From contig NZ_CANDNZ010000003.1 of NCBI RefSeq assembly GCF_947387555.1, forward strand, positions 558,001-622,000: 64,000 nucleotides of DNA, written 5' to 3'. This DNA comes from Thalassomonas sp. RHCl1 (GTDB lineage: Bacteria; Pseudomonadota; Gammaproteobacteria; Enterobacterales; Alteromonadaceae). A program made the position numbers and the translations under genes. Numbering within the stretch: the stretch's first letter is position 1; the number at the start of each line of letters is the position of its first letter. Shown one piece after another: positions 27,271-46,100 of the stretch. The notes under the pieces were generated by a model that worked only from the letters and a program-made list of their open reading frames with translations, was not told the origin of the DNA and did no database searches.

Positions 27271-30200
27271 CCTTCTTCCCCTACTTCGGCATCGTCCAGA
27301 CCTGCGTCTATGGTTTTAGCCAGTAATAAATTATCAATATAAGTTGCAACATTATGAATCGTCTGAGATTCAAATAACTTTGCCACGGTACTTTCAACGT
27401 CAAAATGGTTTTTGATCTCGGTGATCATTCTAATCACCAACAAAGAATGTCCCCCTAAGGCAAAAAAACTTGCCCGGGTACTGAGTGTATCTGCGTCACG
27501 TTTAAGCAACTTGCCCCAAATCTGCGCCAGAGCGGTTTCGGTTTCGGTTTGCGGTGCGACATATTCACCTTGTATCAAACTATTATCCGGCGCCGGTAAG
27601 GCTTTTTTGTCCAACTTACCGTTTGCCGTTAACGGCAGTTCATCCATAACAACCACAGCCGAAGGCAGCATATAGGCCGGTAACTTCGCCTGCAGTTGCG
27701 CCATGATGTGCTGGGTGATTTCATGCTCTTTTTCTGCCTGGGCAGCCGCCTGCTCCGCCAAAGTGACATAAGCCACCAGAGTCTTATCTCCCGGCTCGTC
27801 TTCCCGCACCAGTATCAGGCTATTGGCAACCTCCTCGCATAAGGCAAGCTGAGACTCGATTTCTTCTACTTCAATCCTGAAGCCGCGAATTTTGACCTGG
27901 TTATCTCCCCGGCCAACAAACTCCAGCTCGCCGTTTTTGCCATAACGCGCTAAATCTCCGGTGCGGTATAATATCGAGTCTTTTTCACTGCTAAACGGAT
28001 TGGCAATAAAGTGTTTGTCGGTTTTTTCCTTATCATTAAAGTAACCGGCCCCCACCATGGCGCCTGTGACATAGACCTCTCCGACCGCCCCTTCAGGCAC
28101 CAGTGACAGGGACTGTGTCAGCAACAATACCTGGCTGTGTTTCAAGGGCTTGCCGATAGGCACAGAGCGGCCGTCATCCTGATAACAAGTGACATCGCAG
28201 ATAGTCGCGATCACTGTGGTTTCTGTCGGTCCATAGGTATTTAATAACCTGATCTCCCCCGCCACATGCTGCTGCCATTGCTGCAGATGACTGCCCGACA
28301 TGGCCTCGCCGCCGGTGATCAGCAAGCGCAGCGATGTATCCCGGCTATCAGAGGCCAGTTGTTCATCGACACATAACTGGTGCCAATAGGCGGTAGGCAA
28401 TGATGCCAGCGTGATCTGATATTCTTTCAGCCATTGCCAGTATTGTTGACAACTCGGCAGCTTGCCCGGAGGCGGCAACACTAAGGTTCCGCCGCACAAG
28501 AGTGAGGCGCTTAATTCTTCGATAAAAATATCAAATGAAATCGATGAAAATTGCAGCACTCGATCCGATGGGGTCAACTGATAATCCTGCTCGATCCCTT
28601 CCAGGTAAGCGGCCCAGTTATTATGGGTTATCATCACCCCTTTAGGCTGCCCGGTGGAGCCTGAGGTATAAATCATATAGGCAATATTGTCGCTGCTGTG
28701 CTCTGAGGCCAGGTTCGTCTTTGGTTGACGGTCAATATCTGTCTCCTGGCCGCCGCCAAGACTCACGACCCGGGTTTCCCCGTTTAGCTGCAACAATTCG
28801 GATAAATGCGCCTGGGTAACAAGATGTTTTACCCCGGAATTATCCAGCATATAATTTAACCTTGCTTCGGGATAGCCGGGATCCAGCGGTACGTATCCGC
28901 CACCGGCTTTTAATATTCCCAGCATAGCGATCACCATTTCCAGCGAGCGCTCGAAGCAAAGCCCGACTAAAGTGCCCGCCTGTACTCCCTGCTCCCTTAA
29001 ATAATGACCGAGCTGGTTGGCCCTTTCATTAAGCTGACGGTAACTGAGCTCTTCATCCGCCAAGGTTAATGCGATTTTATCCGGGGTATCCGCCGCCCGC
29101 TTTTCAAAGATTTCATGAATCAGCATCTCTTGCGGCTCATCCGCCCGGCACTCATTCACGGGGGCAAGCAGCTGCTCACTTTCCTGCTCAGATAACATGG
29201 CCAAAGCAGCGACTTGTGTCCCGGCAACATCTGCCCCCTGTTGTTGCAGCTGTGCCATAGCATTTAACACATTGAGCAAATGTTCATTAAACTGGCTGAC
29301 ATGTTCATGGCTAAACAAGCCGGTATCATAAGTCCAGTTTAAAGATACCCCTTGCTCATCGAGCACCATATCGATATCCAAATCAAACTTAGTACTGATG
29401 TGCTCGCTTGATAGCGGCGTCAGGCTGGTATCTGCCATTGCCAGGCTATTATCCCCCAGTCCATAGTCGGTATTTGTTCCCATCATGATTTGGAACAAGG
29501 GGGTATAGGAAGTGCCCCTGGGCACTTTTAACTGTTCAACCAGTTGTTCGAACGGCACATCCTGATTTGCCTGGGCATCTAAGTGTACCTGGCGGATATG
29601 ACGTAAATAGTCTGCCAGCAGCTGATGGCCGGTATCGACCCTCAATACTAAGGTGTTCACAAAGAAGCCGATCAAAGGTTCAAGCTCCGCCTGCATCCTG
29701 TTGGCCACAGCGGTACCGATAATAATATCGTTACTGTTACTATGGCGGGACAACACCAGGCTCAGCGCGGCGTGTAACAGCATAAAAGGCGTGAGCTTAT
29801 ATTGTCCGGCCAGCGCCTGCAGCGAGGCGGCAATATCGGCAGGTAATTGTCCGCGAACACTTGCCCCCAGGTGTGAAGGCACCTCGGGCCGTGCTTTATC
29901 CAGCACTAAAGAATGTACCGGCGGTACTTCCGCCAGTTGCTGCTGCCAGTAATCAAGCTGTGACGCAAACTGCTCTCCCTGCGACCATTCCTGCTGCCAG
30001 TGGGCATAATCGGCATATTGAATATCAAGCTCAGGCAGCGAGATAGTCTGTCCCTTAGTGATCGCCTGATAGGCAGCAACAAATTCCCGTATCAGCACAC
30101 TCATCGACCAGCCGTCACCGGCGATATGGTGCATATTAAATAATAAGGCGCCCCTGGCCTGTTTTTCACTGGTGCTGTTTTCTAATGCAACATAACTGGC

Positions 30201-33200
30201 GCGCACCATTAAGTCTGTCGACAGCACAAACGGCTTTTGCACATCCTGTTCAATTAACTGAAGCAACTCCTGCTGCTGCACTTGCTGCTCAAGCGCGGTA
30301 AAATCATGCCGGGTTATCGCAAAACTAAAATCTGACAGGATTTTTTGCTGTGTTTGCTTGTCCTGTTCAATATAAACCGTGCGCAGCACCTGGTGACGCT
30401 TGATAATGGCGCTCAGGGCCTGCTCTGCGGCATGAATATCAAAAGCCCCCTGCACTTCAAAGGCGGCTGGCATATTATATTCCGGGCTACCCCCCTGCAA
30501 CTGGTCGATCACCCATAACCTTTGCTGGGCAAAAGATAACGGCATGGTCTCCTGTCCCCGGGTAACCGGCAGCACCTGGAGCCTTAACGGCGTCCGGACA
30601 TCCGCTTCGATCAGCTGTGCCATCGCCTGGATAGTACCGGCGTCAAAGACCGCTTTTACCGCCAGTTCAACCTCCAGCTGTTTGCGGATCTCCGCCACCA
30701 GGCGTATGGTTAACAGCGAATGGCCCCCCAGGGCAAAAAAGTCTGCTCCTGTGCTGATCTTATCGGCCTCAAGGTTTAACAGCTGTGCCCAGATGTTCAC
30801 CAGCTTGCTTTCAAGCTCGGTTTGCGGCGCCTGGTAATTGCCCTGCAATAAGGCAGCATCAGGCGAAGGCAAGGCTTTTTTATCCACCTTGCCGTTGGCG
30901 GTCACCGGCCAGTCATAGATAACAACAAACATCGCCGGTACCATATAATGCGGCAAAGATGCGGTTAATGTCTGTTTCAACGATTCGATCAGAGAGGTTT
31001 GCTGCTCTTCGGTGATGTCCTTGATTTCAGGTGTAATATAGGCCAGCAGTTGCTTTTGTCCCGCCTGCACTTCCCGGGTAGTCACCAGACAGGAGCTCAG
31101 GCCCTGACAGCTTGATAACTGGTTTTCAATTTCTCCCAGCTCGATCCTGAAGCCGTTGATTTTCACCTGGTCATCCACCCGGCCGATAAAGTCCAGATCG
31201 CCGTTGGCCAAATAGCGCACCAGATCCCCGGTTTTATATAGGCGATCTTCCGCCTTGTCGGAAAACGGGTTTTGAATAAAACTCTTTTGTGTTAACTGCG
31301 CTTTATTTAAGTAACCGCGGGAAACGCCGTCGCCGCCGATATAAAGCTCGCCGATACAACCTTTGGGGGTTAATCTGAAGGCCTGATCAAACACATAAAG
31401 CGAGACATTGGCCATCGCCCGTCCGATAGACACAGGCCCTTGCGGCTCCAACTCAGCAATACTCGCACACACCGTGCCTTCGGAAGGACCATAGGCATTA
31501 AACATCCTGCATTTTGACGCCCAGATTTTTACCAGCGCGGGATCACAGGCTTCGCCGGCGACAATCAGGCTCTCCAGGGCATAATCCCGGTGGTGATCCA
31601 ATAAAGCGAGTAATGCCGGCGGCAGGGTGACATGGCTGATGCTTTCTTTAAGTAACACCTGCTGTAAGGTATCCGCCGACTGCCGGGTTTGCTCGTCGCA
31701 TACCACCAGCGCCGCTCCAATGACAAACGCCATCAGCCACTCGGACGTTGCCGCATCAAAATTAAGGGAAGCAAACTGTAATACCCGGCTGTTTTCTTGC
31801 ACAGCAAAAGCCTGGCTTTGGCTCAGGCCTAAATTCACTGCGCCCCTGTGCTCCAGCAGCACCCCTTTGGGCTGCCCGGTTGAGCCTGAGGTATAGATGA
31901 CATAAGCCAGGCTGTTGGCATCGAGATCTTTGGCAATAAGAGGATTTTCACAGGAAAAATCTCTGGACAGCTGCTGCCAGGTTTCCAGCTCGATCACTTC
32001 GATTTTATCGCTATCGAAAAGGCTGGCATTTAGCTCAGCCTGGCTGATGACATATTTAAGGCCGGTATCGGCAAGCATATACTCCAGCCGTGCCTGCGGA
32101 TAGGCGGGATCCAGGGGCACGTAGGCACCGCCGGCTTTAAGGACCGCTAAAATCGCCACCAGCATTTCATGGGAGCGTTCCAGGCAGATACCGACAAAAT
32201 CTTCTGTCTGTACGCCGCGCTCGCGCAGATAGTGGGCGAGGCGGTTGGCCCTTTCGTTCAGTTCGCGGTAGCTCAGCTCGGTGCCGTTAAAACTCAGCGC
32301 AAGATTATCCGGCGTTGCTGCCGCCTGCGCTTCAAATAATTCATGGATCAGTTTATCCTGCGGATATTCCTGACGGGTATCGTTAAGCACATTAAGTAAG
32401 TAGTCACTTTCCTGCTCGGACATGATGTCAAGGAAAGCTAATTCGGTCTCTGCCAGCCCCTTGCTCTGCGCCATTGAAGTTAACAGGATCGCCAGGTGTT
32501 CAATTAACTGCTCGGCATGTTCACGGTTAAACAGATTGGTATCATAAATCCAGTCCAGCCCCACCCCCTGCTCGGAGATGTTGATGGCCACTTCCAGATC
32601 AAATTTTGCGCTGATGGTATCACTGGCTAAAGGAGAAAGTCTTGCCCCGTTTAGATCCATGACCTCACCGGCGGAGGTCTCCCCTAAGGCAAAATCGTTA
32701 TTGGTAGATAACATGATCTGGAATAACGGCGTATAGGCACTGTTGCGGGGGATATTCAAGCGTTCGACGATTTGTTCAAACGGCACATCCTGGTTGTTTT
32801 GCGCGTCAAAATGTACCTGGCGCACATGGGCCAAATAATCATCCAGCCGGGCATGGCTTGTATCCAACCTAAGCACTAAATTGTTGACAAAAAAGCCGAT
32901 CAGCGGCTCAAGTTCCGACTGCATCCGGTTGGCTACCGGGGTACCGATCACGATATCCGTGCTGTTGCTGTGTCTGGACAATACCAGGGCTAATGCACTG
33001 TGCATCAGCATAAAAGGCGTTAATTTATAACGGCCGGCAATATCCTGAAGCTGTTTGGCGATATCACCGGATAGCTGGCGGCTGACCCGATCGGCGCTAT
33101 GTCCCTTGATATCTGGTCTGGGATGATCCAGGGCTAAGGTGTGCACCGGCGGCATATCCGCCAATTGTTTGTCCCAGTAGCCCAGCTGCTGCTCCAGCAC

Positions 33201-33977
33201 ATCTCCTTTGAGGTAGTCCCGCTGCCAAAGGGCATAATCGGCATATTGAATATCCAGCGGGGCTAACGGACTTGCCTGGCCGGAAATGATCGCCTGATAC
33301 AAGGCAATAAATTCCCCGACCAGGACATTCATCGACCAGCCGTCGGAAGCGATATGATGCATGTTAAATAGCAAGACACCTTTGCCGCTGTCTAAGGCGA
33401 TAAAGCTGGCGCGTATCATCAGATCGCGGGCCAGATCAAACGGCTGCTTCATATCTTCATCAATCAGCGCCATCAACCGGTTCTGGCGGTTTTGCGCATC
33501 CAATGAAGTTAAATCAAAGCGCCCCAGGCTAAAGTCGTAGTCGTCGCGGATCACCTGCACCGTATCGTCATCACCGTCAATATAAACAGTACGTAATACC
33601 TGATGGCGTTTGATGATTTCTGTCAGCACCTGCTCAGCAACATCCGCGTTGAAATCTCCCTCGACCTCGAATGCCGACGGCATATTATATTCTTCGCTGC
33701 TGCCCTGTAGCTGGTCAACAAACCAGAGTCTTTGCTGGGCAAAAGATAAGGGTAGATTCTCCTGCTGGGTGCGAACCGGGATACTGGTTTGCTCCGATTG
33801 CTGCCGCGTCTGGATAAAAGCGATGATTTCACTCTTGTGAGACTGCAATAATGCCTTGTCGTCGGCATCTAACTGGCTCAATTTGCCTTTGACGCTCAGC
33901 CGGTTATCTTTTACGGCTAAACTCACCCCTTTGCCCGCGAGCATGATAAGGATATCTTTTACGTTAACTTCACTCAT
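27261..33977 (-). CDS. Two-module NRPS, first gene of the minus-strand NRPS set
   Basis: A 2238-residue synthetase, starting at MSEVNVKD. An AGGAAG ribosome-binding site lies 6 bases before this ATG; an in-frame ATG at 33995 would add six residues but lacks a good site. Order: TubC-type docking domain (1-60), C1 (HHIASDG near 206), A1 (from about 544), T1 (near 1083), C2 (HHIAGDG near 1284), A2 (from about 1620), T2 (near 2173), then an acidic tail ending EVGEEGWL. The module 1 code DASTIAAVC is close to the gramicidin Phe code DAWTIAAICK and suggests an aromatic residue. The module 2 code DIESLTTVI has E239, as in codes for basic residues. The tail resembles that of the plus-strand NRPS (EEAEEWIL), consistent with short acidic partner motifs for TubC-type docking domains. 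Its 3' end overlaps the next NRPS gene. Confidence 0.97.
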   Translation of the reverse strand: MSEVNVKDILIMLAGKGVSLAVKDNRLSVKGKLSQLDADDKALLQSHKSEIIAFIQTRQQSEQTSIPVRTQQENLPLSFAQQRLWFVDQLQGSSEEYNMPSAFEVEGDFNADVAEQVLTEIIKRHQVLRTVYIDGDDDTVQVIRDDYDFSLGRFDLTSLDAQNRQNRLMALIDEDMKQPFDLARDLMIRASFIALDSGKGVLLFNMHHIASDGWSMNVLVGEFIALYQAIISGQASPLAPLDIQYADYALWQRDYLKGDVLEQQLGYWDKQLADMPPVHTLALDHPRPDIKGHSADRVSRQLSGDIAKQLQDIAGRYKLTPFMLMHSALALVLSRHSNSTDIVIGTPVANRMQSELEPLIGFFVNNLVLRLDTSHARLDDYLAHVRQVHFDAQNNQDVPFEQIVERLNIPRNSAYTPLFQIMLSTNNDFALGETSAGEVMDLNGARLSPLASDTISAKFDLEVAINISEQGVGLDWIYDTNLFNREHAEQLIEHLAILLTSMAQSKGLAETELAFLDIMSEQESDYLLNVLNDTRQEYPQDKLIHELFEAQAAATPDNLALSFNGTELSYRELNERANRLAHYLRERGVQTEDFVGICLERSHEMLVAILAVLKAGGAYVPLDPAYPQARLEYMLADTGLKYVISQAELNASLFDSDKIEVIELETWQQLSRDFSCENPLIAKDLDANSLAYVIYTSGSTGQPKGVLLEHRGAVNLGLSQSQAFAVQENSRVLQFASLNFDAATSEWLMAFVIGAALVVCDEQTRQSADTLQQVLLKESISHVTLPPALLALLDHHRDYALESLIVAGEACDPALVKIWASKCRMFNAYGPSEGTVCASIAELEPQGPVSIGRAMANVSLYVFDQAFRLTPKGCIGELYIGGDGVSRGYLNKAQLTQKSFIQNPFSDKAEDRLYKTGDLVRYLANGDLDFIGRVDDQVKINGFRIELGEIENQLSSCQGLSSCLVTTREVQAGQKQLLAYITPEIKDITEEQQTSLIESLKQTLTASLPHYMVPAMFVVIYDWPVTANGKVDKKALPSPDAALLQGNYQAPQTELESKLVNIWAQLLNLEADKISTGADFFALGGHSLLTIRLVAEIRKQLEVELAVKAVFDAGTIQAMAQLIEADVRTPLRLQVLPVTRGQETMPLSFAQQRLWVIDQLQGGSPEYNMPAAFEVQGAFDIHAAEQALSAIIKRHQVLRTVYIEQDKQTQQKILSDFSFAITRHDFTALEQQVQQQELLQLIEQDVQKPFVLSTDLMVRASYVALENSTSEKQARGALLFNMHHIAGDGWSMSVLIREFVAAYQAITKGQTISLPELDIQYADYAHWQQEWSQGEQFASQLDYWQQQLAEVPPVHSLVLDKARPEVPSHLGASVRGQLPADIAASLQALAGQYKLTPFMLLHAALSLVLSRHSNSNDIIIGTAVANRMQAELEPLIGFFVNTLVLRVDTGHQLLADYLRHIRQVHLDAQANQDVPFEQLVEQLKVPRGTSYTPLFQIMMGTNTDYGLGDNSLAMADTSLTPLSSEHISTKFDLDIDMVLDEQGVSLNWTYDTGLFSHEHVSQFNEHLLNVLNAMAQLQQQGADVAGTQVAALAMLSEQESEQLLAPVNECRADEPQEMLIHEIFEKRAADTPDKIALTLADEELSYRQLNERANQLGHYLREQGVQAGTLVGLCFERSLEMVIAMLGILKAGGGYVPLDPGYPEARLNYMLDNSGVKHLVTQAHLSELLQLNGETRVVSLGGGQETDIDRQPKTNLASEHSSDNIAYMIYTSGSTGQPKGVMITHNNWAAYLEGIEQDYQLTPSDRVLQFSSISFDIFIEELSASLLCGGTLVLPPPGKLPSCQQYWQWLKEYQITLASLPTAYWHQLCVDEQLASDSRDTSLRLLITGGEAMSGSHLQQWQQHVAGEIRLLNTYGPTETTVIATICDVTCYQDDGRSVPIGKPLKHSQVLLLTQSLSLVPEGAVGEVYVTGAMVGAGYFNDKEKTDKHFIANPFSSEKDSILYRTGDLARYGKNGELEFVGRGDNQVKIRGFRIEVEEIESQLALCEEVANSLILVREDEPGDKTLVAYVTLAEQAAAQAEKEHEITQHIMAQLQAKLPAYMLPSAVVVMDELPLTANGKLDKKALPAPDNSLIQGEYVAPQTETETALAQIWGKLLKRDADTLSTRASFFALGGHSLLVIRMITEIKNHFDVESTVAKLFESQTIHNVATYIDNLLLAKTIDAGLDDAEVGEEGWL

Positions 33978-34069
33978 ATCTATCTTCCTGTTCATCCCGG
34001 ATGCCCGGCAAAGCTTGCCTTACCAGGATGAAGTCTTAAAATTTCATTACGCTGCTCTTATATCCGGGC

Positions 34070-34116: not shown

Positions 34117-34638
34117 CTAGCCCAACATTCTTTTTAATATTCTCAAACCCGAAAGTTCATGCCTGATCACCGCGGCAATATGCAGCGCCACACAAAACGC
34201 CAGAGCACACACAGAAAATATATGCAGCTGGGTAAAAAACTCTTTCAGCGCCGGAGCAAAGGGTAAATAAGGGATCAGGGTCATGCCGAGAAACTCAACC
34301 TTTCTGTCCATCATCAATACCCCGGAGAGTAAAACAATAAAGATCAACAGATACATGCCGGCATGCACCTTGTCGGCAATTTTACGCGAGCGCAGCGACA
34401 GGCCTTGATAGTCTTCGGGGGCGGGATTGTTAACCCAGTTTAAAACACGGAACATAAATACCGGGATAAAAAAGGTATTCAGCAACACGTTTAGCGCCAA
34501 CACCGAATTCTTAAGATCGGCATCAACCTCGAACAAGGTGACGTAAAATCCCGAGATCGTCACCCATAAAATCACCACAGCACTGAGCCAATGGAAAAAC
34601 CTTGTTTTCTTATTATATTTTTCATTTGAAGCTATCAC
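34117..34638 (-). CDS. Cytochrome b561-like membrane protein
   Basis: A 173-residue, four-helix membrane protein of the prokaryotic cytochrome b561 type. Candidate haem-ligand histidines lie in the helices: FFHWLSA near residue 15, VHAGMYL near 92, and QLHIFSV and ALHIAAVIRH in the last third. The start is GTG at 34638, with AAGGA 8 bases upstream. It is the last gene of a four-gene set (VOC protein, aminotransferase, Ldh2-family dehydrogenase, cytochrome) and follows the dehydrogenase by about 40 bases. Family members shuttle electrons between quinone and other donors. A link to the neighbouring dehydrogenase, or to the acylase/exporter side of the locus, is a guess from position only. Confidence 0.85.
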   Translation of the reverse strand: MIASNEKYNKKTRFFHWLSAVVILWVTISGFYVTLFEVDADLKNSVLALNVLLNTFFIPVFMFRVLNWVNNPAPEDYQGLSLRSRKIADKVHAGMYLLIFIVLLSGVLMMDRKVEFLGMTLIPYLPFAPALKEFFTQLHIFSVCALAFCVALHIAAVIRHELSGLRILKRMLG

Positions 34639-34679
34639 GACGATATCCTTTAACTCTCACCACAAAATAATCTTCTTGT

Positions 34680-35708
34680 TTATCCAATATTAAGTTGTAA
34701 TTCTTGTGCCAGCTGGCGGTAAAACTGCCACTGCTCCTGTGTCAGGGGAATGCCCTGCTCCCGCCTCAACGCGGCGGTTTGCGACTCCTTATCCCCGGCA
34801 CAAAAGATGGTTTCCCCACCAACAGCACCGCTTTCCCTGACTTTTTCCAGCAATAACGACAGCCTTTTTTCAAACATGGCTTTTTCCATAAAGGCTTCGA
34901 TATTGATGGTGATATAAAAGTGGCTCACTTGCCGCGGCTCATCATAAGGCGGGGCATAGAGGTGACTTAATTCCCAGTCGAACAGGCTCTGGTTCAGGAC
35001 ACTGGTTAAAATCGTCACCATCATCGCCAGACCCTGACCTTTATAACCTCCCAGGGGTTTTAACGGACCGATTTCCCGGCTTTCCCGGTCGACATAACTG
35101 ACCCAGTCGTCTGCTATCGGCATATCGGTGGCCAGGTGACGCATGATTTTTGATAAAGAGACCTGGCTGGTGGCCATATCCAGACAAAAAACATCGCCGT
35201 TTTCCCCCGGCGCGGCAAAGCTCAACGGGTTAGTGCCGAATAATTTATCGGTGCCGTTATAGGGCGACACCAGGGAGTCGGCATTACTGACACACAGGCA
35301 AATATAACCTTGCTTGGCTGCATGATAGGTATAGTTGGCAGCGGCGCCAAAATGATTGGAGTTCTTCACCCCGATGGCAGAAATACCAAAGTCTTTCGCC
35401 AGCTCCATGCTTTTTTCTACCGCTTCAAAACCGGCAACCAGGCCCAATGCCTGATCGGCATCGAGTTGCCCGACCACAGGAAATTTGTGGTGGCACTGGA
35501 TATCCGGCCTGCTCTTTGCCCTGCCGCCTTTAAGTTCCTGCAAATAGGTGGCTAATAACCCGACCCCATGGGAGTCTATCCCCCATAAAGAGGGATTAAG
35601 CAAACCACTGCTGATAAAGGCCTTGTGTCTGTCACTGAGATCAAAATTTGCCAGCGAGGCGCTGATAATCGTGCTCAGGGATTCAACCGAAATATTATGC
35701 TGCTTCAT
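34680..35708 (-). CDS. Ldh2/malate-type NAD(P)-dependent 2-hydroxyacid dehydrogenase
   Basis: A 342-residue member of the Ldh2 family, which includes malate, lactate, sulfolactate and ureidoglycolate dehydrogenases and some mandelate dehydrogenases. Family marks are DSHGVGLLATYL near residue 45, KNSNHFGAA near 116, FGTNPLSFAAP near 162 and LGGYKGQGLAMM near 220. I chose the ATG at 35708 (MKQHNISVES), which overlaps the 3' end of the aminotransferase gene by 14 bases; an in-frame ATG at 35756 would add 16 residues inside that gene. Between an HmaS-like and an HpgT-like gene's products, the expected job is oxidation of a 2-hydroxy-arylacetate (4-hydroxymandelate or mandelate) to the arylglyoxylate. 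In actinomycetes a flavin oxidase (Hmo) does this. Substrate is inferred from context. Confidence 0.85.
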   Translation of the reverse strand: MKQHNISVESLSTIISASLANFDLSDRHKAFISSGLLNPSLWGIDSHGVGLLATYLQELKGGRAKSRPDIQCHHKFPVVGQLDADQALGLVAGFEAVEKSMELAKDFGISAIGVKNSNHFGAAANYTYHAAKQGYICLCVSNADSLVSPYNGTDKLFGTNPLSFAAPGENGDVFCLDMATSQVSLSKIMRHLATDMPIADDWVSYVDRESREIGPLKPLGGYKGQGLAMMVTILTSVLNQSLFDWELSHLYAPPYDEPRQVSHFYITINIEAFMEKAMFEKRLSLLLEKVRESGAVGGETIFCAGDKESQTAALRREQGIPLTQEQWQFYRQLAQELQLNIG

Positions 35709-37017
35709 GAGACTTACCATCAAGGTGCAACAAATAATCTGCCAGGGCTTTGACACCCGAGCGTATTTGTTCCTTGTTTACATAGCTAAAAGACAAACGG
35801 ATATAATGCTCATGGCCACCCGCATTGGAGAAAAAGCTCATCGGCACACAAATCACGCCGAACTTTTCCGCACACTCAAACACTTGCTGCTCGGTAAAGG
35901 ACATGGGCAATTTCAGGGTTAAGAAGAAACCACCTTCCGGACGATTCCAGCTTACCTGTTGCAAAGCCGCCGGGCCTTGATGGAAATGCTGCTCCAGCGC
36001 TTCAAGCATCACGTCCCGGTTATCCCGGTACAGGGAAACTAAAGGTTCAATTGCCTTGTTGACGGAACAGTCCACCTCAAGCAAGAGGCCGCCGACAATT
36101 GCCTGGGCGATTTGCCCGGTATTGACGCTGATCAGACTTTTCACTTTGGAAAATTCTTCGATCAAAGGCGTTTCACCGCCGTCGGCGCTACGCAGCTTTT
36201 GATCGCTGATCAGGTAACCCACCCGCAGGCCCGGACAGATAGTTTTGGCAAAGGTGCCGATATAAATTACATGGCCGCCGGTGTCCAGCGCCTTTAATGT
36301 CGGCAGGGGCTCCCCTTCAAAACGAAAAGCGCCGTAGGGGTTATCTTCAATCAGCAACAGCTCGCTTTGTTGTGCATAAGCCAGTAATTCCCGGCGGCGC
36401 GCCAAGGTGATAGAAGTGCCCAAAGGATTATTAAAGTCCGGGATCAGGTAAAGTGAACGCGGATTTTTCCCCTCAGCCTTAATTTGCTGACAAACCTGCT
36501 GCAGATGCTCCAGGTTTGGCCCCTGGTCATCACTTTCAACCACGGCAATTTCAATGCCCTTGATTTGCGCCAGCCCGGTAATACCGATATAAGTGGGATC
36601 TGTGATCAGCAATACATCCCGGCCGGGGGTAAATAAAGTCGACAGACACAATGCCATGCCTTCCTGCGCGCCATTGGTCACCAGGATATCATCGGCATCG
36701 ACCGTGAACTTTTCATCCAGTTGCAGCGATTGAGCGATCAAGTGATTAATAATGCCGTTGGTGCGGCCATACTGCCCCAAAGAGGTATAGACCGAAGCCG
36801 GGGAAACATCCCGGGCTTCGCTGGTATGGTCAACAAACAGCTGTATTTTTTCCAACCATCCCGGCACATCGAAGAAGGCCTCCGACGGACGGCCCGAAGC
36901 GAAAGAGATGGCGCCGGGAAACTTCTCGGCAACTTCATTAAGAAAATTCATCACTTCCAGTTGGGGCTGGGGACGGTAGGCCAGCTCGCTGGCCTGCAAA
37001 GTTAATTTATGGTCCAT
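35695..37017 (-). CDS. HpgT-like PLP-dependent aminotransferase (arylglycine transaminase)
   Basis: A 440-residue fold-type I aminotransferase. From memory of the family, its N-terminal pattern (EVMNFLNEVAEKFPGAISFA, then GRPSEAFFDV and QYGRTNGI) and TNGAQEGM, DPTYIGITG and PDFNNPLGT are the same signposts as in HpgT, which makes hydroxyphenylglycine in glycopeptide-antibiotic producers. The PLP lysine is in GTFAKTICPGLRVGY near residue 258, and the late arginine is in IRLSFSYV. Expected reaction: arylglyoxylate plus an amino donor (often Tyr) to L-arylglycine. The gene begins 1 base after the VOC-gene stop and overlaps the dehydrogenase gene, so the three are translationally coupled. A 2-aminoadipate/MocR-type aminotransferase is the alternative. 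Confidence 0.85.
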   Translation of the reverse strand: MDHKLTLQASELAYRPQPQLEVMNFLNEVAEKFPGAISFASGRPSEAFFDVPGWLEKIQLFVDHTSEARDVSPASVYTSLGQYGRTNGIINHLIAQSLQLDEKFTVDADDILVTNGAQEGMALCLSTLFTPGRDVLLITDPTYIGITGLAQIKGIEIAVVESDDQGPNLEHLQQVCQQIKAEGKNPRSLYLIPDFNNPLGTSITLARRRELLAYAQQSELLLIEDNPYGAFRFEGEPLPTLKALDTGGHVIYIGTFAKTICPGLRVGYLISDQKLRSADGGETPLIEEFSKVKSLISVNTGQIAQAIVGGLLLEVDCSVNKAIEPLVSLYRDNRDVMLEALEQHFHQGPAALQQVSWNRPEGGFFLTLKLPMSFTEQQVFECAEKFGVICVPMSFFSNAGGHEHYIRLSFSYVNKEQIRSGVKALADYLLHLDGKSHEAA

Positions 37018-37018
37018 A

Positions 37019-37528
37019 TTAAACTAACTCAGCCTCCTCTAACTGATTAAACAGATCCTGGATGCTGTCGTCTTCAAAACCTTCATTGCCGGTACGCTCA
37101 ATAATTTCAAACATCATGCCGCTGTTTTCATCACGGTTGGAAAATATCTGACGCAAGCCTTGGCCCTTGATAATGCCAGTAGCAAATGTAAACCCTTGTT
37201 CTTCAATAAGTTTTGTTGCACTTTCAAGGTCATTAACTTCAAGCGCAATATGCTGGACACCGGGACCGTATTGCTCAACATAGCGGGATACCTGAGATTC
37301 TGGCTCCAACCCCTGAATCAAGACGATTGTAAAGTTACCACTGCCCATTACGGCAGAAATCATACCCGAATTTTTTCCTAAGGTTTCGCGTCGGCCCTGA
37401 AACTCAAAACCCAACATTTGCTGATAGAACGCAATGGCCTTGTCCAAATCCAGAACTGCAACTGCAACATGGTCAATTTTGGAATAGATGTTTGCCATAC
37501 TTTCAATGTTCAACGGAGGTAATACCAT
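37019..37528 (-). CDS. Single-lobe HPPD/hydroxymandelate synthase-like VOC protein
   Basis: A 169-residue protein of the vicinal-oxygen-chelate fold. The start at 37528 (MVLPPLNIE) has AAGGATT upstream; longer and shorter ATG starts lack a site. Three metal-ligand positions of the HPPD/HmaS catalytic lobe can be read in order: His in KIDHVAVAV, His in GVQHIALEV and Glu in MMFEIIERTG. The end (GLRQIFSNRDENSGMMFEII, then GNEGFEDDSIQDLF) matches the C-terminal signature of 4-hydroxyphenylpyruvate dioxygenase and hydroxymandelate synthase. Those enzymes are two-lobed and about 350-380 residues; only the catalytic lobe is here. With the HpgT-like and Ldh2-like genes it suggests conversion of an arylpyruvate to a mandelate. 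Methylmalonyl-CoA epimerase is also single-lobed but lacks this C-terminus. Confidence 0.75.
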   Translation of the reverse strand: MVLPPLNIESMANIYSKIDHVAVAVLDLDKAIAFYQQMLGFEFQGRRETLGKNSGMISAVMGSGNFTIVLIQGLEPESQVSRYVEQYGPGVQHIALEVNDLESATKLIEEQGFTFATGIIKGQGLRQIFSNRDENSGMMFEIIERTGNEGFEDDSIQDLFNQLEEAELV

Positions 37529-38648: not shown

Positions 38649-41102
38649 ATGCGCGTTTTTAATAAAATGCCGCTGACATTCAGATTTACTCTGTTTGTCT
38701 TTATCCCTTTGTTTTTTCTGGTTATTTACAGTTATAAACTATTTTTTCTGGACCCGCTTCCCGATAAAACAACCCGACAATTTGTCAATGGTTTGGATGA
38801 TAAGGTAAGCATAGAACGTGATAATCACGGTCTGGTAAAAATCAAAGCAGAAACTGATAAAGATGTTTATTTTGCCATGGGATATGTCCATGCCCAGGAC
38901 AGATTATGGCAACTTGAACTACAACGCAGAATTAGTCAGGGACGGCTCAGTGAAATATTTGGTAAAACTTCAGTCCATCAGGATATCTGGTTTCGTACTT
39001 TAGGCCTTTATCAGGCGGCAAGTAAAAGTATCCCTGCTTTAAGCCCACAGGCAAAGGCATCATTAGAAGCCTATGCCGCCGGGATCAATAGCTGGATACA
39101 GTCGGCGGAACAATTGCCGGTTGAGTTCTCATTGCTCGATATTAGCCCGGAGCCGTGGACAATAACCGACTCTTTAGCCTGGATTAAGGTCTTTTCATTA
39201 AATCTGGCTCACAACCTTCATTCCGAAATTGAGGCTTATATAGGCGCGCAATATTTGTCGGATGAACAGCTCAGCCTCTTCTATCCTGAACTGGCAGACA
39301 GCCCGATGACAGCCAGGATCAAGGATGAAGAAAAACTAAAAGATTTATTTGCCCGCTTTGATGCCCTGCAAACCGAGCAGCAGCAAACCTACAAGATTGG
39401 CGGTAGTTATGTCGGCAGTAATGCCTGGGTAGTTTCAGGTGAACTGACGCAATCCGGCGTTCCCATCCTGGCAAATGACCCCCATCTAGGTTTACAACTG
39501 CCTTCCCTTTGGTATTCCGTTAAGCAGGAAGGTAAAAACCTGGCGGCTTCCGGCATGAGCCTGGTGGGACTGCCCGTGGTTGTCTTCGGGAAAAACAAGG
39601 ACATAGCCTGGGGCGGCACCAACATGATGGCGGATGCGCAGGATCTGTATATAGAAGAGGTAAACCCAAATAATAGTCTGCAATATCAAGTAGATGGTAA
39701 GTTTATCGACTTTGAAACCAGAAACGAAAGAATCAAGGTAAAAGCAGAATCTCCGGCATTCCTGAAAGATCCGATCAAAGATGTCGAAGTTCAGGTGCGC
39801 ACTACCATACACGGGCCGGTGATCAGTGATGTTATCCAGGGGTTCGAACAGCCGATATCCCTGCGCTGGACCGCACTTAACAGTGAAGACACTACCTACA
39901 ACGCTTTTTACCAGTTAAGTTATGCCAGCAACTGGCAGGAATATAACCAGGCGCTTGAGCAGTATGTCTCCCCTGCACTGAATTTATTTTATGCCGACAA
40001 TCACAATAATATCGGTTTTACCGGCATAGGAAAAATTCCCCTGCGCAACCAGGGCAAGGGGCTGTTACCGGTATCCGGTGCCGACTCGGCTAACCACTGG
40101 CACAGCTATATTCCCTACGCCGAGATGCCAAGACGTTATAATCCCGAAGAAGGTTACCTGATAAACGCCAACAACGTAAATACAACACCAGGTTATCCTT
40201 ACTTTATCTCCGCCGACTTTGCTCCGCCGGCAAGGGCAGACAGAATTGAAGCGTTAATCGAAGAAAAACAAGACAAGTTAACCCTTAGCGATATGCAAAC
40301 CATGCAGGGAGATGTCAAAGATATATCAACGACAAAAATGTTGGCCCTATTAAAAGAGCTCGCGGCTGACTTCCCTGAGCAGCAACAAGCCCTGGCATTG
40401 TTGGCTCAGTGGGACGGCGAAGCAAGCAGAGAAAGTATTGCCGCCACCATTTATTATACCTGGCTGCGGCATCTGAAGAGTTATGTCTTCAATGACGAAC
40501 TCACCAGCTACTGGAACAAAAACCAGCTTCAGGGTTATCTGCGAAACCTGAAAGAAAAAGTACCGGCAGATAAACTGGCGGCTCTGCTGGCAAGTAACAG
40601 CCCCTGGTGCGATAACATCAACACCGAAAAGAAAGAAAGCTGCAGTAACATCATCGGCATGTCATTAAACTCGGCGCTTAAGGAAATGAGCAAGTTTGCC
40701 GGGGCCGACATGGATAACTGGCGCTGGGGCGACGTACAGTATACCCGCTATCAGCATACGCCTTTTAGCCAGATGAAATTACTGGACCAGGTGTTTGAGC
40801 GAAAAATCGGCAACGGCGGCTCAGCCAATACCATCAATGTCGCCAGCGGCATCTTTGATGAAGACAAAGGTTACCTGCAAGACTTTGGCGCCGGTTTCCG
40901 TCAGATCATCCGCTTATCGGAGCAGGAGCCTGTCCAGCTGTTAATGAACTCCACCGGACAATCCGGACAGCTGGCAAGTGACTATTACGACGATATGGTC
41001 GAACGTTTCAGAGATGTCGAATATATCAACTTTGCCAAGGAAGTGCCTTATGTGCAGTCCATCACTTTGCAACCGAATAACCAGGAAGGAGCATCCCAGT
41101 GA
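38649..41102 (+). CDS. Penicillin-acylase-family Ntn hydrolase (PvdQ-type role likely)
   Basis: An 817-residue N-terminal-nucleophile amidase of the penicillin G acylase/AHL acylase family. Residues 8-28 form a hydrophobic signal or anchor segment, so the enzyme should act in the periplasm. Family marks are FAMGYVHAQDRLWQLELQRR near 77, the autocleavage site VGSNAWVVSG with Ser257 as the new N-terminal nucleophile, and NDPHLGLQLPSLWY just after. The length is normal for the unprocessed precursor. The stop overlaps the GTG start of the exporter gene, so the two are co-translated. Next to a PvdE-like exporter and an NRPS with a starter C domain, the most likely role is removal of an acyl group from the exported peptide, as PvdQ does for pyoverdine. 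Quorum-signal degradation or self-protection are alternatives. Confidence 0.9.
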   Translation: MRVFNKMPLTFRFTLFVFIPLFFLVIYSYKLFFLDPLPDKTTRQFVNGLDDKVSIERDNHGLVKIKAETDKDVYFAMGYVHAQDRLWQLELQRRISQGRLSEIFGKTSVHQDIWFRTLGLYQAASKSIPALSPQAKASLEAYAAGINSWIQSAEQLPVEFSLLDISPEPWTITDSLAWIKVFSLNLAHNLHSEIEAYIGAQYLSDEQLSLFYPELADSPMTARIKDEEKLKDLFARFDALQTEQQQTYKIGGSYVGSNAWVVSGELTQSGVPILANDPHLGLQLPSLWYSVKQEGKNLAASGMSLVGLPVVVFGKNKDIAWGGTNMMADAQDLYIEEVNPNNSLQYQVDGKFIDFETRNERIKVKAESPAFLKDPIKDVEVQVRTTIHGPVISDVIQGFEQPISLRWTALNSEDTTYNAFYQLSYASNWQEYNQALEQYVSPALNLFYADNHNNIGFTGIGKIPLRNQGKGLLPVSGADSANHWHSYIPYAEMPRRYNPEEGYLINANNVNTTPGYPYFISADFAPPARADRIEALIEEKQDKLTLSDMQTMQGDVKDISTTKMLALLKELAADFPEQQQALALLAQWDGEASRESIAATIYYTWLRHLKSYVFNDELTSYWNKNQLQGYLRNLKEKVPADKLAALLASNSPWCDNINTEKKESCSNIIGMSLNSALKEMSKFAGADMDNWRWGDVQYTRYQHTPFSQMKLLDQVFERKIGNGGSANTINVASGIFDEDKGYLQDFGAGFRQIIRLSEQEPVQLLMNSTGQSGQLASDYYDDMVERFRDVEYINFAKEVPYVQSITLQPNNQEGASQ

Positions 41103-42787
41103 AAATTTTTAATTCCTTTACCAAGGAGGCGCCGAATAAAGTCTTTATCTCGATTTTACTCGGTGCCCTTGCCGGTATGCTTTATTCGGCGCTTATTCCT
41201 TTGGTGCTCTCGGGCATCAACCCGGAAGATCCCGCTTTTCCAAAAGCCGATACGGTAACCGAGACCCTGTTCTCGTTTGATGTCAGCAATTATAAACTGG
41301 CGCTGATGTTCCTGTTCAGCTGTGTGCTGATCCTGTTAATGCGCAGCTCATCAGAAGTCATGTTGATCCGGGTATCGAGCAATGTCGCTAAAGACCTGCG
41401 CACTAAGTTTTATTACCGCATTGCCGGTGCGCCTTTGGCGACCCAGGAAAAAATCGGCTCGGCCCGCTTTACCGCGGCGGTGAATATCGATGTCCCGAGG
41501 ATCATCGGCGGCGCCCGGGTGATCCCGGAAATACTGATCAACACCATCACCTTAGTCGGCATGTTGGGCTTTTTGGTCTATCTCAACTTTGAAGTCTTTA
41601 AATTCGTGATGATGGCTATTTTTGTCGGCGTGATCTGCTATCAGATCCCGATCACTATCGGCAGCCGCATGTTCCAGACCTCCCGGATAGAGCAGGACAA
41701 GTTGCAAGAGTCGATCAAAAGCCTGATCTATGGCGCCAAAGAGCTCAAACTCGATACTTTAAAGCGCCGGCACTTTTTTAAACATACTTTGCTGAACCAC
41801 GAAGACAACATTTTAAAAAATAATAAAAGAGCAGAAACCATCATGCGGGCGACCATGTGTTTTGGCGACCTGATCTCCTTTTTTGTTATCGGTGCGGTGT
41901 GCTTTATCTTCGTCAATTATTATTCCATCAGCCAGCAGGAACTTGTCGGCGTGGTCATGGCGCTGCTTTATGTTACCGGCCCTATTTCCATCATATTAGG
42001 TTCGATCCCCCAATTGGCGATCGCCTCGGTTTCATACCGCAGAATGGAAAAACTTATTGCAGAAATCCCGCAGGAAGACAGCAATGAGCAGGTTAACCAG
42101 CTTGGCGAGTGGCAAAGCATGAAATTTGACCAGGTAGAATACAGCTACCCTATGGTGGCAGGTGAAGCCGGGTTTAAAGTCGGCCCGCTCAACCTGGAAA
42201 TTAATAAGGGAGAAATCACCTTTATTATCGGGGCAAACGGCTCGGGTAAATCAACGTTAAGTAAATTATTAACCCTGCATTACCTGCCGACCTCAGGTGA
42301 CATCTTATTTGGCGATCAACGAGTCTCCCCTGACTCTATTGTCAGCCACAGGCAGACTATCGGGGCGATTTACTCGGATTACCACCTCTTTGACCGCCTG
42401 TTGGTGGAGTTAACCGATGAAGTGCTGGCAACAACCCAGCATTATTTAAAAACCTTACATTTGGACAAAAAGGTGAAAATAGTCGACGGCCAGTTCTCCA
42501 CAACCTCATTATCCGACGGACAACGTAAAAGGCTGGCGCTGCTGGTGGCATTTTTGGAAGACAAAGATCTTTACCTGTTCGACGAATGGGCGGCAGATCA
42601 GGATCCGGTATTTAAAAATGTCTTTTATACCGAAATATTGCCCAACTTAAAGGCCAAAAACAAAGCCGTTATCGCCATCAGTCATGATGACAAGTATTTT
42701 GACGTCGCCGATAAAATACTGGTCATGGACCAGGGCAAACTCGTTGACTATGAGGAATCAAGCTTACACCTTGCCCAGGTCAGTTAA
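41099..42787 (+). CDS. PvdE/SyrD-type cyclic-peptide ABC exporter
   Basis: A 562-residue half-transporter with a fused membrane and ATPase domain. The membrane part (about 15-320) has roughly six hydrophobic segments. The ATPase has Walker A GANGSGKST near 378, the signature LSDGQRKRLALL near 470, Walker B DLYLFDEWAADQ near 490 and the switch His in AISHDD near 525. The Walker B acidic pair reads DE, and the degenerate WAADQDP that follows is typical of the peptide-siderophore exporter group. The GTG start overlaps the acylase stop (GTGA), with AGGAAGGA 8 bases upstream. It should carry the finished or acylated peptide across the inner membrane. No outer-membrane efflux partner is in the window. 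Confidence 0.93.
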   Translation: MKIFNSFTKEAPNKVFISILLGALAGMLYSALIPLVLSGINPEDPAFPKADTVTETLFSFDVSNYKLALMFLFSCVLILLMRSSSEVMLIRVSSNVAKDLRTKFYYRIAGAPLATQEKIGSARFTAAVNIDVPRIIGGARVIPEILINTITLVGMLGFLVYLNFEVFKFVMMAIFVGVICYQIPITIGSRMFQTSRIEQDKLQESIKSLIYGAKELKLDTLKRRHFFKHTLLNHEDNILKNNKRAETIMRATMCFGDLISFFVIGAVCFIFVNYYSISQQELVGVVMALLYVTGPISIILGSIPQLAIASVSYRRMEKLIAEIPQEDSNEQVNQLGEWQSMKFDQVEYSYPMVAGEAGFKVGPLNLEINKGEITFIIGANGSGKSTLSKLLTLHYLPTSGDILFGDQRVSPDSIVSHRQTIGAIYSDYHLFDRLLVELTDEVLATTQHYLKTLHLDKKVKIVDGQFSTTSLSDGQRKRLALLVAFLEDKDLYLFDEWAADQDPVFKNVFYTEILPNLKAKNKAVIAISHDDKYFDVADKILVMDQGKLVDYEESSLHLAQVS

Positions 42788-43163: not shown

Positions 43164-46100
43164 ATGAACAATGACAATAAAAATAACGTATATCCCTTAA
43201 CCTTAGCCCAGCAAGATATATATTTTGATCAACTCCACCATCAGGGCAGCCCCTTATACAATATCGGCGGCGTGATCCGTTTTAAAAAACTGGATATTCC
43301 CCGGCTGCAGGCGGCACATAAAAAGTTAGTGAGCCAGCATGATGCCTTTGGTTTGCGCATTGTTGAATCGGAAACCGGCCTGGGACAATATGTCAGCAAA
43401 AAGCGCACTTCGGATCTGCCGCTGATCGATTTCAGCAGCGAAAGCAACCCGCAGCAAGCGGCGCAGCTGTGGCTAAAAAACCTGTTCGAAACCGCCCTGG
43501 ACATAGATGACTGCGAGCTGTTCCGCTCTTATTTACTGAAAATATCCAATGAGCAATATCAGTATGTCGGTTTTGCCCATCACCTGATTTTAGACGGCTG
43601 GGGGTTTGCCAACTGGGCCAAACAGCTCGGCTGCATCTATAACAACGAACCGGAACATATCTCAGGTGACTGGCAAAGCGTGGCGGACAGCGATCTGGCT
43701 TACCAGCAAAGCAAGCGTTACCAAAAAGATAAAGTTTTCTGGCAAAGTGAACTGGAAAACCTGCCGGAGCCGGCCCTGCCCCCTTTGTATCAGGAACAAT
43801 ACCAGGACACGAAAACACCGCCGAGCCACCGGGAAATATTAACTATCCCCCATGCATTGCACCAGCAACTGGCATTAAAGGCAAAAGAAGCCAATACCAG
43901 TGCTTCCCAAGCCTACCTGGCGATTCTCAGCCTCTATTTTTCCAGGCTGCTTAACGGCAAAGAATTTATTGTCGGCATTCCTTCGCATAACCGCAGAAGC
44001 CAGGCGGATAAAAACATGGTCGGCATCTTCACCGGCGTCAGCCCGCTTCGGGTCTCAGTCAATCTGAGCCAAAACTTTAACCAGTTATGCGAAAACCTGT
44101 CGTCGGGCCTCAAGCATATCTACCGTCATCAGCGTTACCCGATAGGCAATATGCACCAGGAAGCGCAAAACGGACAACACCGCGGCTCCCTGTATGACAT
44201 CGCCTTCAATTACCTCAAACTTGACAGTCAGTTAGAGGTCGAAGGGCATGAAGCGGATCTGGTGTACCTGAGCCACAACCACGAGCAGACGCCGCTGATG
44301 TTTACCGTCTGGGAATACGGTGAAAATCAGGATGTAGAAATTCAGCTGGATCATAACCTTAGCTATATCTCGAAAGCCGATGCCAAACTACTGTCGGCAA
44401 GGTTTGAAACCATTATCAAACAAGTCGCCGGCCAGGAAATAACTTCCCTGGAGCAGGTCGAGATCCTGCCGCAACAAGAGCTTGATATCTTAAACGGCTT
44501 CGCCCGGGGCATAGAGGTCAAGCGAGACGAAAACCTGCTGGCCCATGAATTATTTGAACAGCAGGTCGAGCAGACCCCGGATAAAACCGCGTTAATTTTT
44601 AAAGACGAGCAACTGAGCTACCGCGAACTTAATACTCGCGCCAACCGCCTGGCCCGCTACCTGCAGGCACAGGGGGTTAAACCCGACAGCCTGGTCGGTG
44701 TGTGTGTTGACCGCTCGGCGGAAATGGTGATCAGCATATTGGCGATCCTCAAAACAGGCGCCGCTTATGTGCCGCTTGATCCCAGCTACCCTAAGGCCCG
44801 TTTGCAATATATTCTTGAAGACACAGGGTTAAAACACCTGGTGAACTGGTCGCAGCTGGACATAGACACCCTGACAGAAGCCGAGGTCCATATTACCGAT
44901 CTTAACCACGGCCAGGATCTGTGCAGCGATTTATCCGGTGAAAACCTCACCGAGCTGGTGCCCGGCGGCAAAAACCGCCTGGCTTATGTCATCTATACCT
45001 CAGGCTCTACCGGCAATCCCAAAGGGGTGCTGGTGCAACATGCCAACCTGGTCAACTTCCTGTTTGCCATGCAAGACAAGCCCGGCATGAGCGGCGATGA
45101 CAGCCTGCTGGCGGTCACCTCGACCTCATTTGATATCCACTGCCTGGAGCTGTTCTTACCTTTGATCTGCGGCGCAAAATTAGTGGTGGCATCAAAAGCC
45201 GCCACCTCGGATGCCAGCCAGCTGATGGATTTGATCGAGCAGCATCAGATCAATATCTTCCAGGCGACACCGGCCACCTGGCGCATGCTGCTTGACAGCA
45301 AGTGGCAGCCACAAGCGCACATCAAGATCTTATGCGGCGGCGAAGCCCTGAGCCTGAGCCTGGCGAAGCAATTAACCGGCAACGCCAATATTGAGCTTTG
45401 GAACATGTACGGCCCGACAGAAACCACGGTCTGGTCCAGTGTCCACAGGATCCACGGCGATGATGAAAACATCTTAATCGGCAAACCCATAGATAATACG
45501 CAATTTTATGTGGTCAATCGCGCCGGCGAACTGGCCCCGGTCGGCGCCACCGGCGAGCTGTTGATCACCGGCAGCGGCGTGACCCGGGGTTATTTAAACC
45601 GCCCGGATTTAACCGACAGACAATTTATAACCAATAGCTATCAGACACAGGATCCTGCCAGCGAAAAAGCCTATCGCACCGGCGACCTGGTGCGCTGGCT
45701 GCCGGACGGCAACCTGGTATGTTTGGGCCGTATCGATGATCAGATCAAAATCCGCGGTTTCCGGGTAGAGCTGGGGGAAATTGAAAACCAGTTAGCCCTG
45801 TGCCCGCAAGTCGCCAGTTGCCTGGTGGCTGCCCGGGAAGATCAGTCGGGTCAAAAGCAGTTGGTGGCTTATGTCAAACCTGAGCAGAGCGAGCCGACAG
45901 AAGATGAGCAAATACAGCTCGTCGAAAGCTATAAACAGGCACTGAAAACCACCTTGCCTGATTACATGGTGCCGTCAGCTTTTGTCTTTATGCAGCAATG
46001 GCCGCTGACCGCCAATGGCAAAATCGATAAAAAAGCCCTGCCCTCTCCCGATGCCAGTGCTTTACAGGGAGAATATATCGCGCCACAAACAGCCACAGAA

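Follow-up and report, generated by a model that had tools for sequence, protein, structure and literature searches.

A candidate arylglycine pathway with a one-lobe HmaS-like protein in a peptide synthetase locus of Thalassomonas sp. RHCl1

Can a single lobe of the two-lobed HPPD fold take over the first step of arylglycine formation for a non-ribosomal peptide synthetase (NRPS)? This question is raised by a 64,000-nucleotide stretch of the genome of Thalassomonas sp. RHCl1 (contig NZ_CANDNZ010000003.1, positions 558,001 to 622,000; in the following the window), where genes for a VOC protein, an aminotransferase (AT) and an Ldh2-type dehydrogenase form a unit that leads into NRPS1, with four NRPS genes downstream on the minus strand (Table 1). 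A preliminary description of this DNA had taken the trio as coupled genes following the logic of the actinomycete HmaS-Hmo-HpgT pathway to 4-hydroxyphenylglycine (Hpg). The coupling was found as given there, with 1 nt between the VOC and AT genes and an overlap of 14 nt between the AT and Ldh2 genes; the VOC gene starts with ATG and has AAGGAT just before it.

In this study, we propose with good confidence that the cassette supplies the neighboring NRPSs with an arylglycine, most probably Hpg. The VOC protein would bind Fe(II) via H20, H93 and E141, use an arylpyruvate and O2 as substrates, decarboxylate the former and hydroxylate its benzylic carbon to yield an arylmandelate, so that a single lobe, possibly paired in a homodimer, would perform the reaction of HmaS. 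Ldh2 would oxidize the arylmandelate to an arylglyoxylate with NAD(P)+ as acceptor, the HpgT-like AT would convert this to the arylglycine, and two adenylation domains (A domains) with the pocket code DILHAGFLF, the first of NRPS3 and the third of the plus-strand NRPS, would load it. This compact pathway logic, as put forward in the preliminary description, is supported on the sequence level by gene content shared with an HmaS operon, by oxidase swaps, by chorismate mutase fusions and by the adenylation codes.

The one-lobe VOC protein

The VOC protein comprises 169 amino acids in one lobe, in contrast to the two lobes and about 350–370 residues of HPPD and HmaS. It carries the His-His-Glu metal triad, the QIF glutamine and the C-terminal helix of the HPPD/HmaS catalytic lobe. 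H20, H93, E141 and Q127 were invariant in all 30 aligned one-lobe rows, as was E164 of the HPPD-type helix, while F151 was present in 29 of them. A structure prediction against HmaS and HPPD had been suggested as a check and was run with AlphaFold2 on the monomer. The model (pLDDT 88.8, pTM 0.82) shows two beta-alpha-beta-beta-beta modules followed by the terminal helix, and its top Foldseek match was the hydroxymandelate synthase 2r5v (2.1e-12). Model and alignment thus bear out the description of a single catalytic lobe with H, H and E ligands and an HPPD-type C-terminus.

Profile searches pointed to the same relationship. The best NCBIfam model was that for HPPD (TIGR01263; 2e-23, 83 bits), of which the C-terminal half was matched, and the methylmalonyl-CoA epimerase (MMCE) model TIGR03081 gave 66 bits at a cut-off of 115. 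An MMCE-like control protein (L083) reached 143 bits on TIGR03081 and had no HPPD match at 1e-10, a pattern opposite to that of the one-lobe proteins tested. When a profile built from 23 of the one-lobe proteins was searched against the PDB, 2r5v ranked best (98 bits, 3.7e-27), HPPDs and the HmaS 3zgj came next, and no epimerase-type protein exceeded 74 bits. The active-site signature is mixed; M56 is HmaS-like in 30 of 30 rows (L or F in HPPD).

Some features count against a close likeness to HmaS. S/T54 and F160 (29/30) of the one-lobe rows are HPPD-like, HmaS having Q and Y there, and the 83 bits on TIGR01263 stay below the cut-off of 277 for HPPD/HmaS, to be compared with 310–328 bits for three actinobacterial HmaS-type proteins. 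Also, epimerase-type structures scored nearly as high as HmaS in the Foldseek search.

For the phylogeny, a lobe tree of 65 rows was used, 30 of them one-lobe proteins; it omits L049 and G427 (near copies), L127 (diverged), L054 (broken), G512 (same contig as L042) and the G439 rows, of which G439a is the same contig as L045 and G439b a short broken copy. The catalytic C-lobes of HmaS and HPPD formed one clade (100/98). The one-lobe proteins stood outside this clade, were not nested among the HmaS catalytic lobes, and grouped neither with the N-lobes nor with the epimerase-like rows. The tree does not settle whether they form a single group, but it is compatible with one origin. Clustering with epimerases or glyoxalases, together with a lack of dioxygenase activity, had been named beforehand as a finding that would speak against an HmaS-like role; in the tree, the VOC protein did not cluster with the epimerase-type rows. 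An assignment of the VOC protein to MMCE or the glyoxalases was rejected on the model scores, the tree, the PDB profile ranking and the MMCE-like control. Taken together with the gene neighborhoods and pocket codes described below, the VOC protein probably functions as HmaS does, although it does not belong to the HmaS family.

Given their position beside the clade of HPPD and HmaS C-lobes in a tree without a root, the one-lobe proteins may be a relict of the ancestor of the two-lobed fold or may be convergent. They also open to assay how the two-lobed HPPD fold came about, a point on which the preliminary description expected such a protein to be informative. A second one-lobe HPPD-like family of about 190–210 residues was noticed in Nitrospira and relatives (L072:9932-10564, L057, L069, L070); it has the H-H-E residues and the HPPD-type tail, joins the HPPD/HmaS C-lobes (96/90) and scores 94 bits on TIGR01263.

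Aminotransferase, oxidases and gene neighborhoods

In the source genome, the next match of the window AT reached 78 bits (self-match 992) and 28% identity over the matched part; with the L124 and L128 ATs it shares 44% identity. An AT tree of 28 rows, built without L049, G427, the split L126 AT and the G766 and G767 ATs, which were identified afterwards, contained one group of 21 rows (93/95, good but not starred) with the window AT, 12 other VOC-linked ATs and actinobacterial ATs, apart from seven AAT-like rows. This group holds three ATs with an HmaS neighbor (L124, L128, L129), one with a neighboring type III polyketide synthase of the DpgA type (L146), and also four ATs with neither HmaS nor DpgA seen nearby (L123, L130, L131, L132). 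The last three had been fetched as possible HpgTs and were kept in the tree, although no HmaS is annotated in the stretches viewed. In a Nonomuraea record, a stretch lacking annotation, no HmaS, Hmo or PhyH match was found beside the AT. The reference ATs were labelled HpgT by their gene neighbors, and the outgroup consisted of AAT-like rows without the experimentally known aminoadipate enzymes of the PDB. The other result named as adverse was clustering with aminoadipate enzymes; against this outgroup, which stood for the aminoadipate/kynurenine type, the AT groups with those of HmaS and Dpg loci. An AAT-like paralog was rejected on this basis, and by its sequence the window AT is HpgT-like. 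The AT gene of Bradyrhizobium sp. 187 (L126:15550-16844) is split into two overlapping frames.

For the oxidation step, the gene content fits the suggested replacement of the flavin oxidase by an Ldh2-type dehydrogenase. PF02615 matched over the whole domain (residues 6–328 of 342; 282 bits at a cut-off of 38.8), the protein scored below the cut-offs of all five named NCBIfam subfamilies matched, and this is the sole PF02615 match in the 7.56-Mb source genome. No FMN_dh domain, i.e. the Hmo fold, was found among the cassette proteins of the window. Three relatives, in Undibacterium, Dyella and Hahella, do carry such a flavin mononucleotide (FMN)-dependent alpha-hydroxy-acid dehydrogenase (PF01070, 8e-109 to 1e-127) instead of Ldh2. 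A genome-wide search of 14 genomes at 1e-60 detected a window-like Ldh2 in each of the six further genomes that encode VOC, AT and Ldh2; in five of these it was known from the VOC locus, and G766 was added by the search. None of the three genomes with the FMN type and none of five AT-less genomes had one. The use of two unrelated alpha-hydroxy-acid oxidases in one role points to an alpha-hydroxy acid as the product of the VOC protein. As a point against the proposed pathway, no oxidase was found in the stretches viewed of six rhizobial VOC-AT loci.

The strongest comparison, one with an HmaS operon, is provided by Hahella sp. HN01. On plasmid p1 of Streptomyces angustmyceticus (L128), genes for HmaS, Hmo, PhyH, HpgT, a DMT transporter and a prephenate dehydrogenase lie in a row, the HmaS identity resting on the PDB ranking (2r5v 276 bits and 3zgj 271 bits, above other matches). 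In Hahella, the row is Hmo, one-lobe VOC, PhyH, AT and DMT, with Hmo ahead of the first enzyme and not after it. The shared genes are 40–52% identical overall (Hmo 40%, PhyH 51%, AT 45%, DMT 45%), and within this set HmaS alone is filled by another protein, the one-lobe VOC. The part of the Hahella locus in view gave no match for a prephenate dehydrogenase or an NRPS. The Hahella AT groups with actinobacterial ATs (99/99) and not with the other VOC-linked ATs. At 1e-40, a level at which HmaS-type proteins with their 310–328 bits are detectable, the Hahella genome has a single TIGR01263 protein (424 bits).

Further neighborhoods link the VOC protein to aromatic precursors. Two fusion proteins, one from Sinorhizobium meliloti T073 and one from an actinobacterial metagenome-assembled genome (MAG), begin with a chorismate mutase (CM_2; 3e-20 and 2e-15, respectively) and end with the VOC, which ties the latter to free arylpyruvate. 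The Sinorhizobium fusion gene has pabB as a neighbor, along with genes for a class IV aminotransferase and a prephenate-dehydrogenase-like protein, with no HpgT-like AT in view, and the VOC-AT-NRPS genes of Bradyrhizobium sp. 187 adjoin a pabA-type gene, pabB and a chorismate mutase gene. Genes of these types form the PapABC route to 4-aminophenylpyruvate. This suggests 4-aminophenylpyruvate as a substrate at the rhizobial loci, so that the VOC family may accept more than one ring.

The arrangement VOC-AT-Ldh2 was found in the window, in a near-identical sister (VOC 99% identical), in G701 and G721, in Lysobacter (L035), in a Holophagales MAG (L038) and in Vibrio europaeus (L119). Its recurrence in the sister and five diverged loci argues that the trio is not due to chance. 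In the family of the source organism, a VOC match at 1e-12 was obtained in 9 of 395 genomes, its own included; a class-wide search at 1e-15 returned its own genome only (1/369). Among the best 80 of 431 loci of a GTDB genome scan, 20 relatives (L035–L054, one broken) were 40–56% identical, after which matches had E-values of 3e-19 or weaker. Among 40 of 101 matches listed for plasmid records, at least ten had a one-lobe relative at 39–57% identity, some being near copies. Altogether, one-lobe relatives occur in Gamma-, Beta- and Alphaproteobacteria, Acidobacteriota, Myxococcota and one actinobacterial MAG. Of the 33 loci tabulated besides the window, with G439a and L045 being the same contig, 23 showed NRPS A domains within the stretch viewed. 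The remaining ten are G439a/L045, L035, L041 and L049, where contigs are short or cut, the broken L054, the diverged L127, and L038, L047 and L053.

Adenylation pockets and rival explanations

Pocket codes were read in GrsA numbering with a guide sequence identical to residues 228–437 of 1AMU. Work on GrsA has established that Asp235 holds the alpha-amino group of the substrate, and the pocket code for Hpg is DIFHLGLLC. The AT-bearing loci retain Asp235, with DILHAGFLF (twice) in the window, DIVHLGLVL in Vibrio and DILHLGCTF in rhizobia. At other loci, the VOC gene is accompanied by a gene of the fatty-acyl-AMP-ligase type, and the next NRPS, where readable, carries GVLHLGLVV, GVLHLGLIV or GALHLGLIV in eight of eight distinct loci; a Frateuria pocket, GIVHFGFIL, likewise has Gly235. 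The Gly235 pockets keep His278 and Gly301, as does the module DVYHLGLVF of an S. finlayi cluster with HmaS and an HpgT-like AT. At these loci no HpgT-like AT and no oxidase of this kind were matched, in five cases genome-wide (AT at 1e-40, Ldh2 at 1e-60). The simplest reading of an AT missing where Asp235 is lost is that AT-less clusters would load the arylmandelate directly. In a myxobacterial MAG, the VOC gene stood alone at its locus beside three Asp235 modules (DIFHFGLLI, DIFHYGLLI, DIFHFGLII); the AT predicted from this pocket rule was found on another contig beside Ldh2 and is HpgT-like. Paraburkholderia sabiae, with no AT in view, has the code SILHLGCTF, and decay of the locus is possible there.

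For a tally, a table was filled by hand with one row per locus having an arylglycine-type domain with His278 and Gly301, leaving aside G701, G721, L051, L052, L120 and the loci lacking a readable A domain. Among its 18 loci, Asp235 was present in eight of eight with an HpgT-like AT at the locus or in the genome and in none of ten where no such AT was found, this absence covering the fetched stretch only for L037, L039, L040, L044 and L121. Fisher's test gives p = 2.3e-5, a value that overstates the evidence since the table was built by hand from loci that are related to each other (L048 nearly duplicates L050, and L126 has a split AT). In a tree of A domains without ligase-type, G427 and identical rows, the window, Vibrio, myxobacterial and Sinorhizobium (DVYQVGTIF) domains and all nine Gly235 domains formed one clade (99, quick method), and the rhizobial DILHLGCTF domains another. 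Asp235 has changed independently two or three times, namely in the ligase group, perhaps separately in Frateuria, and in P. sabiae. Several further observations weaken the rule. Two Asp235 domains with His278 and Gly301 were left uncounted, DICHVGLIE of an AT-less Frateuria and DAMHVGGLV of Vibrio, which are Ser-like or unrelated by the tree. Two loci with AT and Ldh2 have no HxG pocket in view: G721 in 13 A domains read in 60 kb, where the cluster is cut at the far end, and G701 in 11 A domains, where it extends past the contig end. The pocket was likewise missing from the ten A domains of L051 and the two of the HmaS locus L124. Within these bounds, the combination of AT and Asp235 may serve as a genomic code that predicts incorporation of an amino acid where both are kept and of a hydroxy acid where both are lost.

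As to the product of the window, the same chemistry could lead from phenylpyruvate to phenylglycine, or in some relatives to the 4-amino analog, rather than to Hpg. In the comparisons made, the pocket code does not separate phenylglycine from Hpg, and two rhizobial loci pair chorismate mutase genes or fusions with pabB, one also with a pabA-type gene. Set against this are the codes DVYHLGLVF of S. finlayi and DIFHFGLLI of the myxobacterial MAG, which resemble both the window code and that for Hpg, and the prephenate dehydrogenase gene, which would supply 4-hydroxyphenylpyruvate, in the Streptomyces operon resembling that of Hahella. We regard this alternative as a minority possibility that deserves to be kept in mind.

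Other explanations depart from Hpg-type chemistry altogether. An epimerase- or glyoxalase-like isomerase, or a small HPPD forming homogentisate, with the AT and Ldh2 making another alpha-amino acid, is conceivable as the fold is common to epimerases and F160 is HPPD-like. We hold this to be improbable because the one-lobe profile places HmaS and HPPD above the epimerases with reversed scores for the MMCE-like control, because the linkage with an HpgT-like AT, two kinds of oxidase, chorismate mutase and an Hpg-like pocket would be left unexplained, and because the source genome already has two HPPDs above the cut-off. Oxygenases of the TauD/PhyH type act on carrier-bound residues in other systems and are present in several cassette loci, so the VOC protein might instead act late, beta-hydroxylating a carrier-bound residue next to accidental AT and dehydrogenase neighbors. 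However, the VOC-AT pair is retained across phyla and the chorismate mutase fusions point to a free substrate, which makes a carrier-bound substrate very improbable indeed.

Known pathways and layout of the window

Compared with the actinomycete pathway represented by S. angustmyceticus and the structures 2r5v and 3zgj, the same chemical order is likely. The ATs fall into one group, both the structure model of the VOC protein and its family profile match HmaS best, and PhyH and DMT neighbors are common to the actinomycete operon and Hahella. In contrast to HmaS, the VOC family is one-lobed (about 150–185 residues) and not nested in HmaS, and unlike in that pathway, oxidation in the window is assigned to an Ldh2-type enzyme and not to the FMN-dependent Hmo. 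The cassette is therefore a predicted variant of the Hpg pathway that starts with a half-size enzyme not belonging to the HmaS clade; the window version also differs in its oxidase. If active as proposed, so small an enzyme could be of use as a catalyst for mandelates and phenylglycines. More tentatively, one lobe might suffice for mandelate-synthase chemistry in general, so that a widespread non-HmaS family feeds NRPSs with arylglycines where oxidase and HpgT are present or with arylmandelates where these are absent and Asp235 is lost, and may, together with the Nitrospira proteins, descend from a one-lobe ancestor of HPPD; we consider this whole picture possible rather than likely.

The reaction of HglS resembles HmaS chemistry. 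Its proteins (HglS/DUF1338, hydroxyglutarate synthase) convert an alpha-keto acid, 2-oxoadipate, to a shorter alpha-hydroxy acid (PMC7286885); they differ from the one-lobe VOC in protein family and substrate. The PglA-E pathway to phenylglycine in Streptomyces pristinaespiralis runs via phenylacetyl-CoA and benzoylformyl-CoA and likewise ends in transamination of phenylglyoxylate, its description naming no HPPD-fold enzyme (PMC7089894). A 2013 genome-mining study of Xanthomonas described META-B NRPS loci with a VOC-fold hypothetical protein, a transaminase and a lactate dehydrogenase, to which it assigned no function, and noted the first two also in Dickeya Ech703 (PMC3849588). Matched by this description, the Xanthomonas trio is very likely the same cassette, so that a function is now proposed for genes published without one. 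Among the matches listed in searches of open-access literature, which did not extend to subscription papers and supplements, we found neither a one-lobe hydroxymandelate synthase nor a later function for the Xanthomonas trio. With the proposed function, arylglycine-type peptides would extend to many Gram-negative groups, where mining rules based on two-lobed HmaS would overlook them.

Table 1. Features of the window (positions counted from its first nucleotide)
Feature	Position	Strand	Remarks
VOC protein, proposed arylmandelate synthase	37019-37528	minus	169 aa; H20/H93/E141 triad, Q127, C-terminal helix 153-165
HpgT-like class I/II pyridoxal phosphate-dependent aminotransferase, proposed arylglyoxylate to arylglycine	35695-37017	minus	440 aa
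Ldh2-family (PF02615) dehydrogenase, proposed arylmandelate to arylglyoxylate	34680-35708	minus	342 aa
Cytochrome b561-family membrane protein, between Ldh2 and NRPS1	34117-34638	minus	Pfam 6e-22
NRPS1	27261-33995	minus	2 A domains: DASTIAAVC, DIESIGTVI
NRPS2	20326-27270	minus	2 A domains: DIESIGTVT, DALWLGGTF
NRPS3	9643-20325	minus	3 A domains, the first arylglycine-type
A domain core in NRPS3, proposed (hydroxy)phenylglycine activation	17296-18210, ends approximate	minus	DILHAGFLF
NRPS4, extends beyond the left edge of the window	1-8469	minus	DILQLGMVW, DAKNISAIN
Penicillin-acylase-family hydrolase	38649-41102	plus	same cluster; PvdQ-like, score far below the PvdQ model cut-off
Cyclic peptide export ABC transporter	41099-42787	plus	TIGR01194 above cut-off
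Divergent NRPS	43164-56165	plus	4333 aa; 4 A domains, the third DILHAGFLF
Second DILHAGFLF A domain core, in the plus-strand NRPS	51531-52431, ends approximate	plus	

The span 34117-37528 assigned to the trio in the preliminary description does contain it, and additionally the cytochrome b561 gene, which had gone unmentioned. This gene lies 41 nt from Ldh2 and was present, among the loci compared, in the window and the near-identical sister G427 only; it is thus probably no member of the pathway and was set aside. The two HPPDs of the source genome above the TIGR01263 cut-off were also set aside as pathway enzymes, both being located away from the window. The second of them (C6:385748-386755, L116) is divergent, barely exceeds the cut-off with 278 bits and adjoins a frame resembling a flavin adenine dinucleotide-type monooxygenase.

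The penicillin-acylase-family gene and the cyclic peptide export ABC transporter gene are paired in the window (38649-42787), in Lysobacter Root916 (L035:2605-6770) and in Vibrio europaeus (L150:2097-6220), and this pairing in cassette clusters may serve the removal of an acyl group around export. The DIESIGT codes of two domains, in NRPS1 and NRPS2, are presumably Lys-like, so that the peptide may be cationic. The code DAKNISAIN occurs in two A domains, the second of NRPS3 and the second of NRPS4. Outside the window, A domains apparently interrupted by an inserted domain were observed in L051 joined with L154 (NRPS at 11729-25303 of the joined stretch), in the G701 NRPS and in L146:2-3031. 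These three group together in the tree, their pocket alignment breaks after FDIS, and the insert in L146 is annotated as an LLM flavin oxidoreductase.

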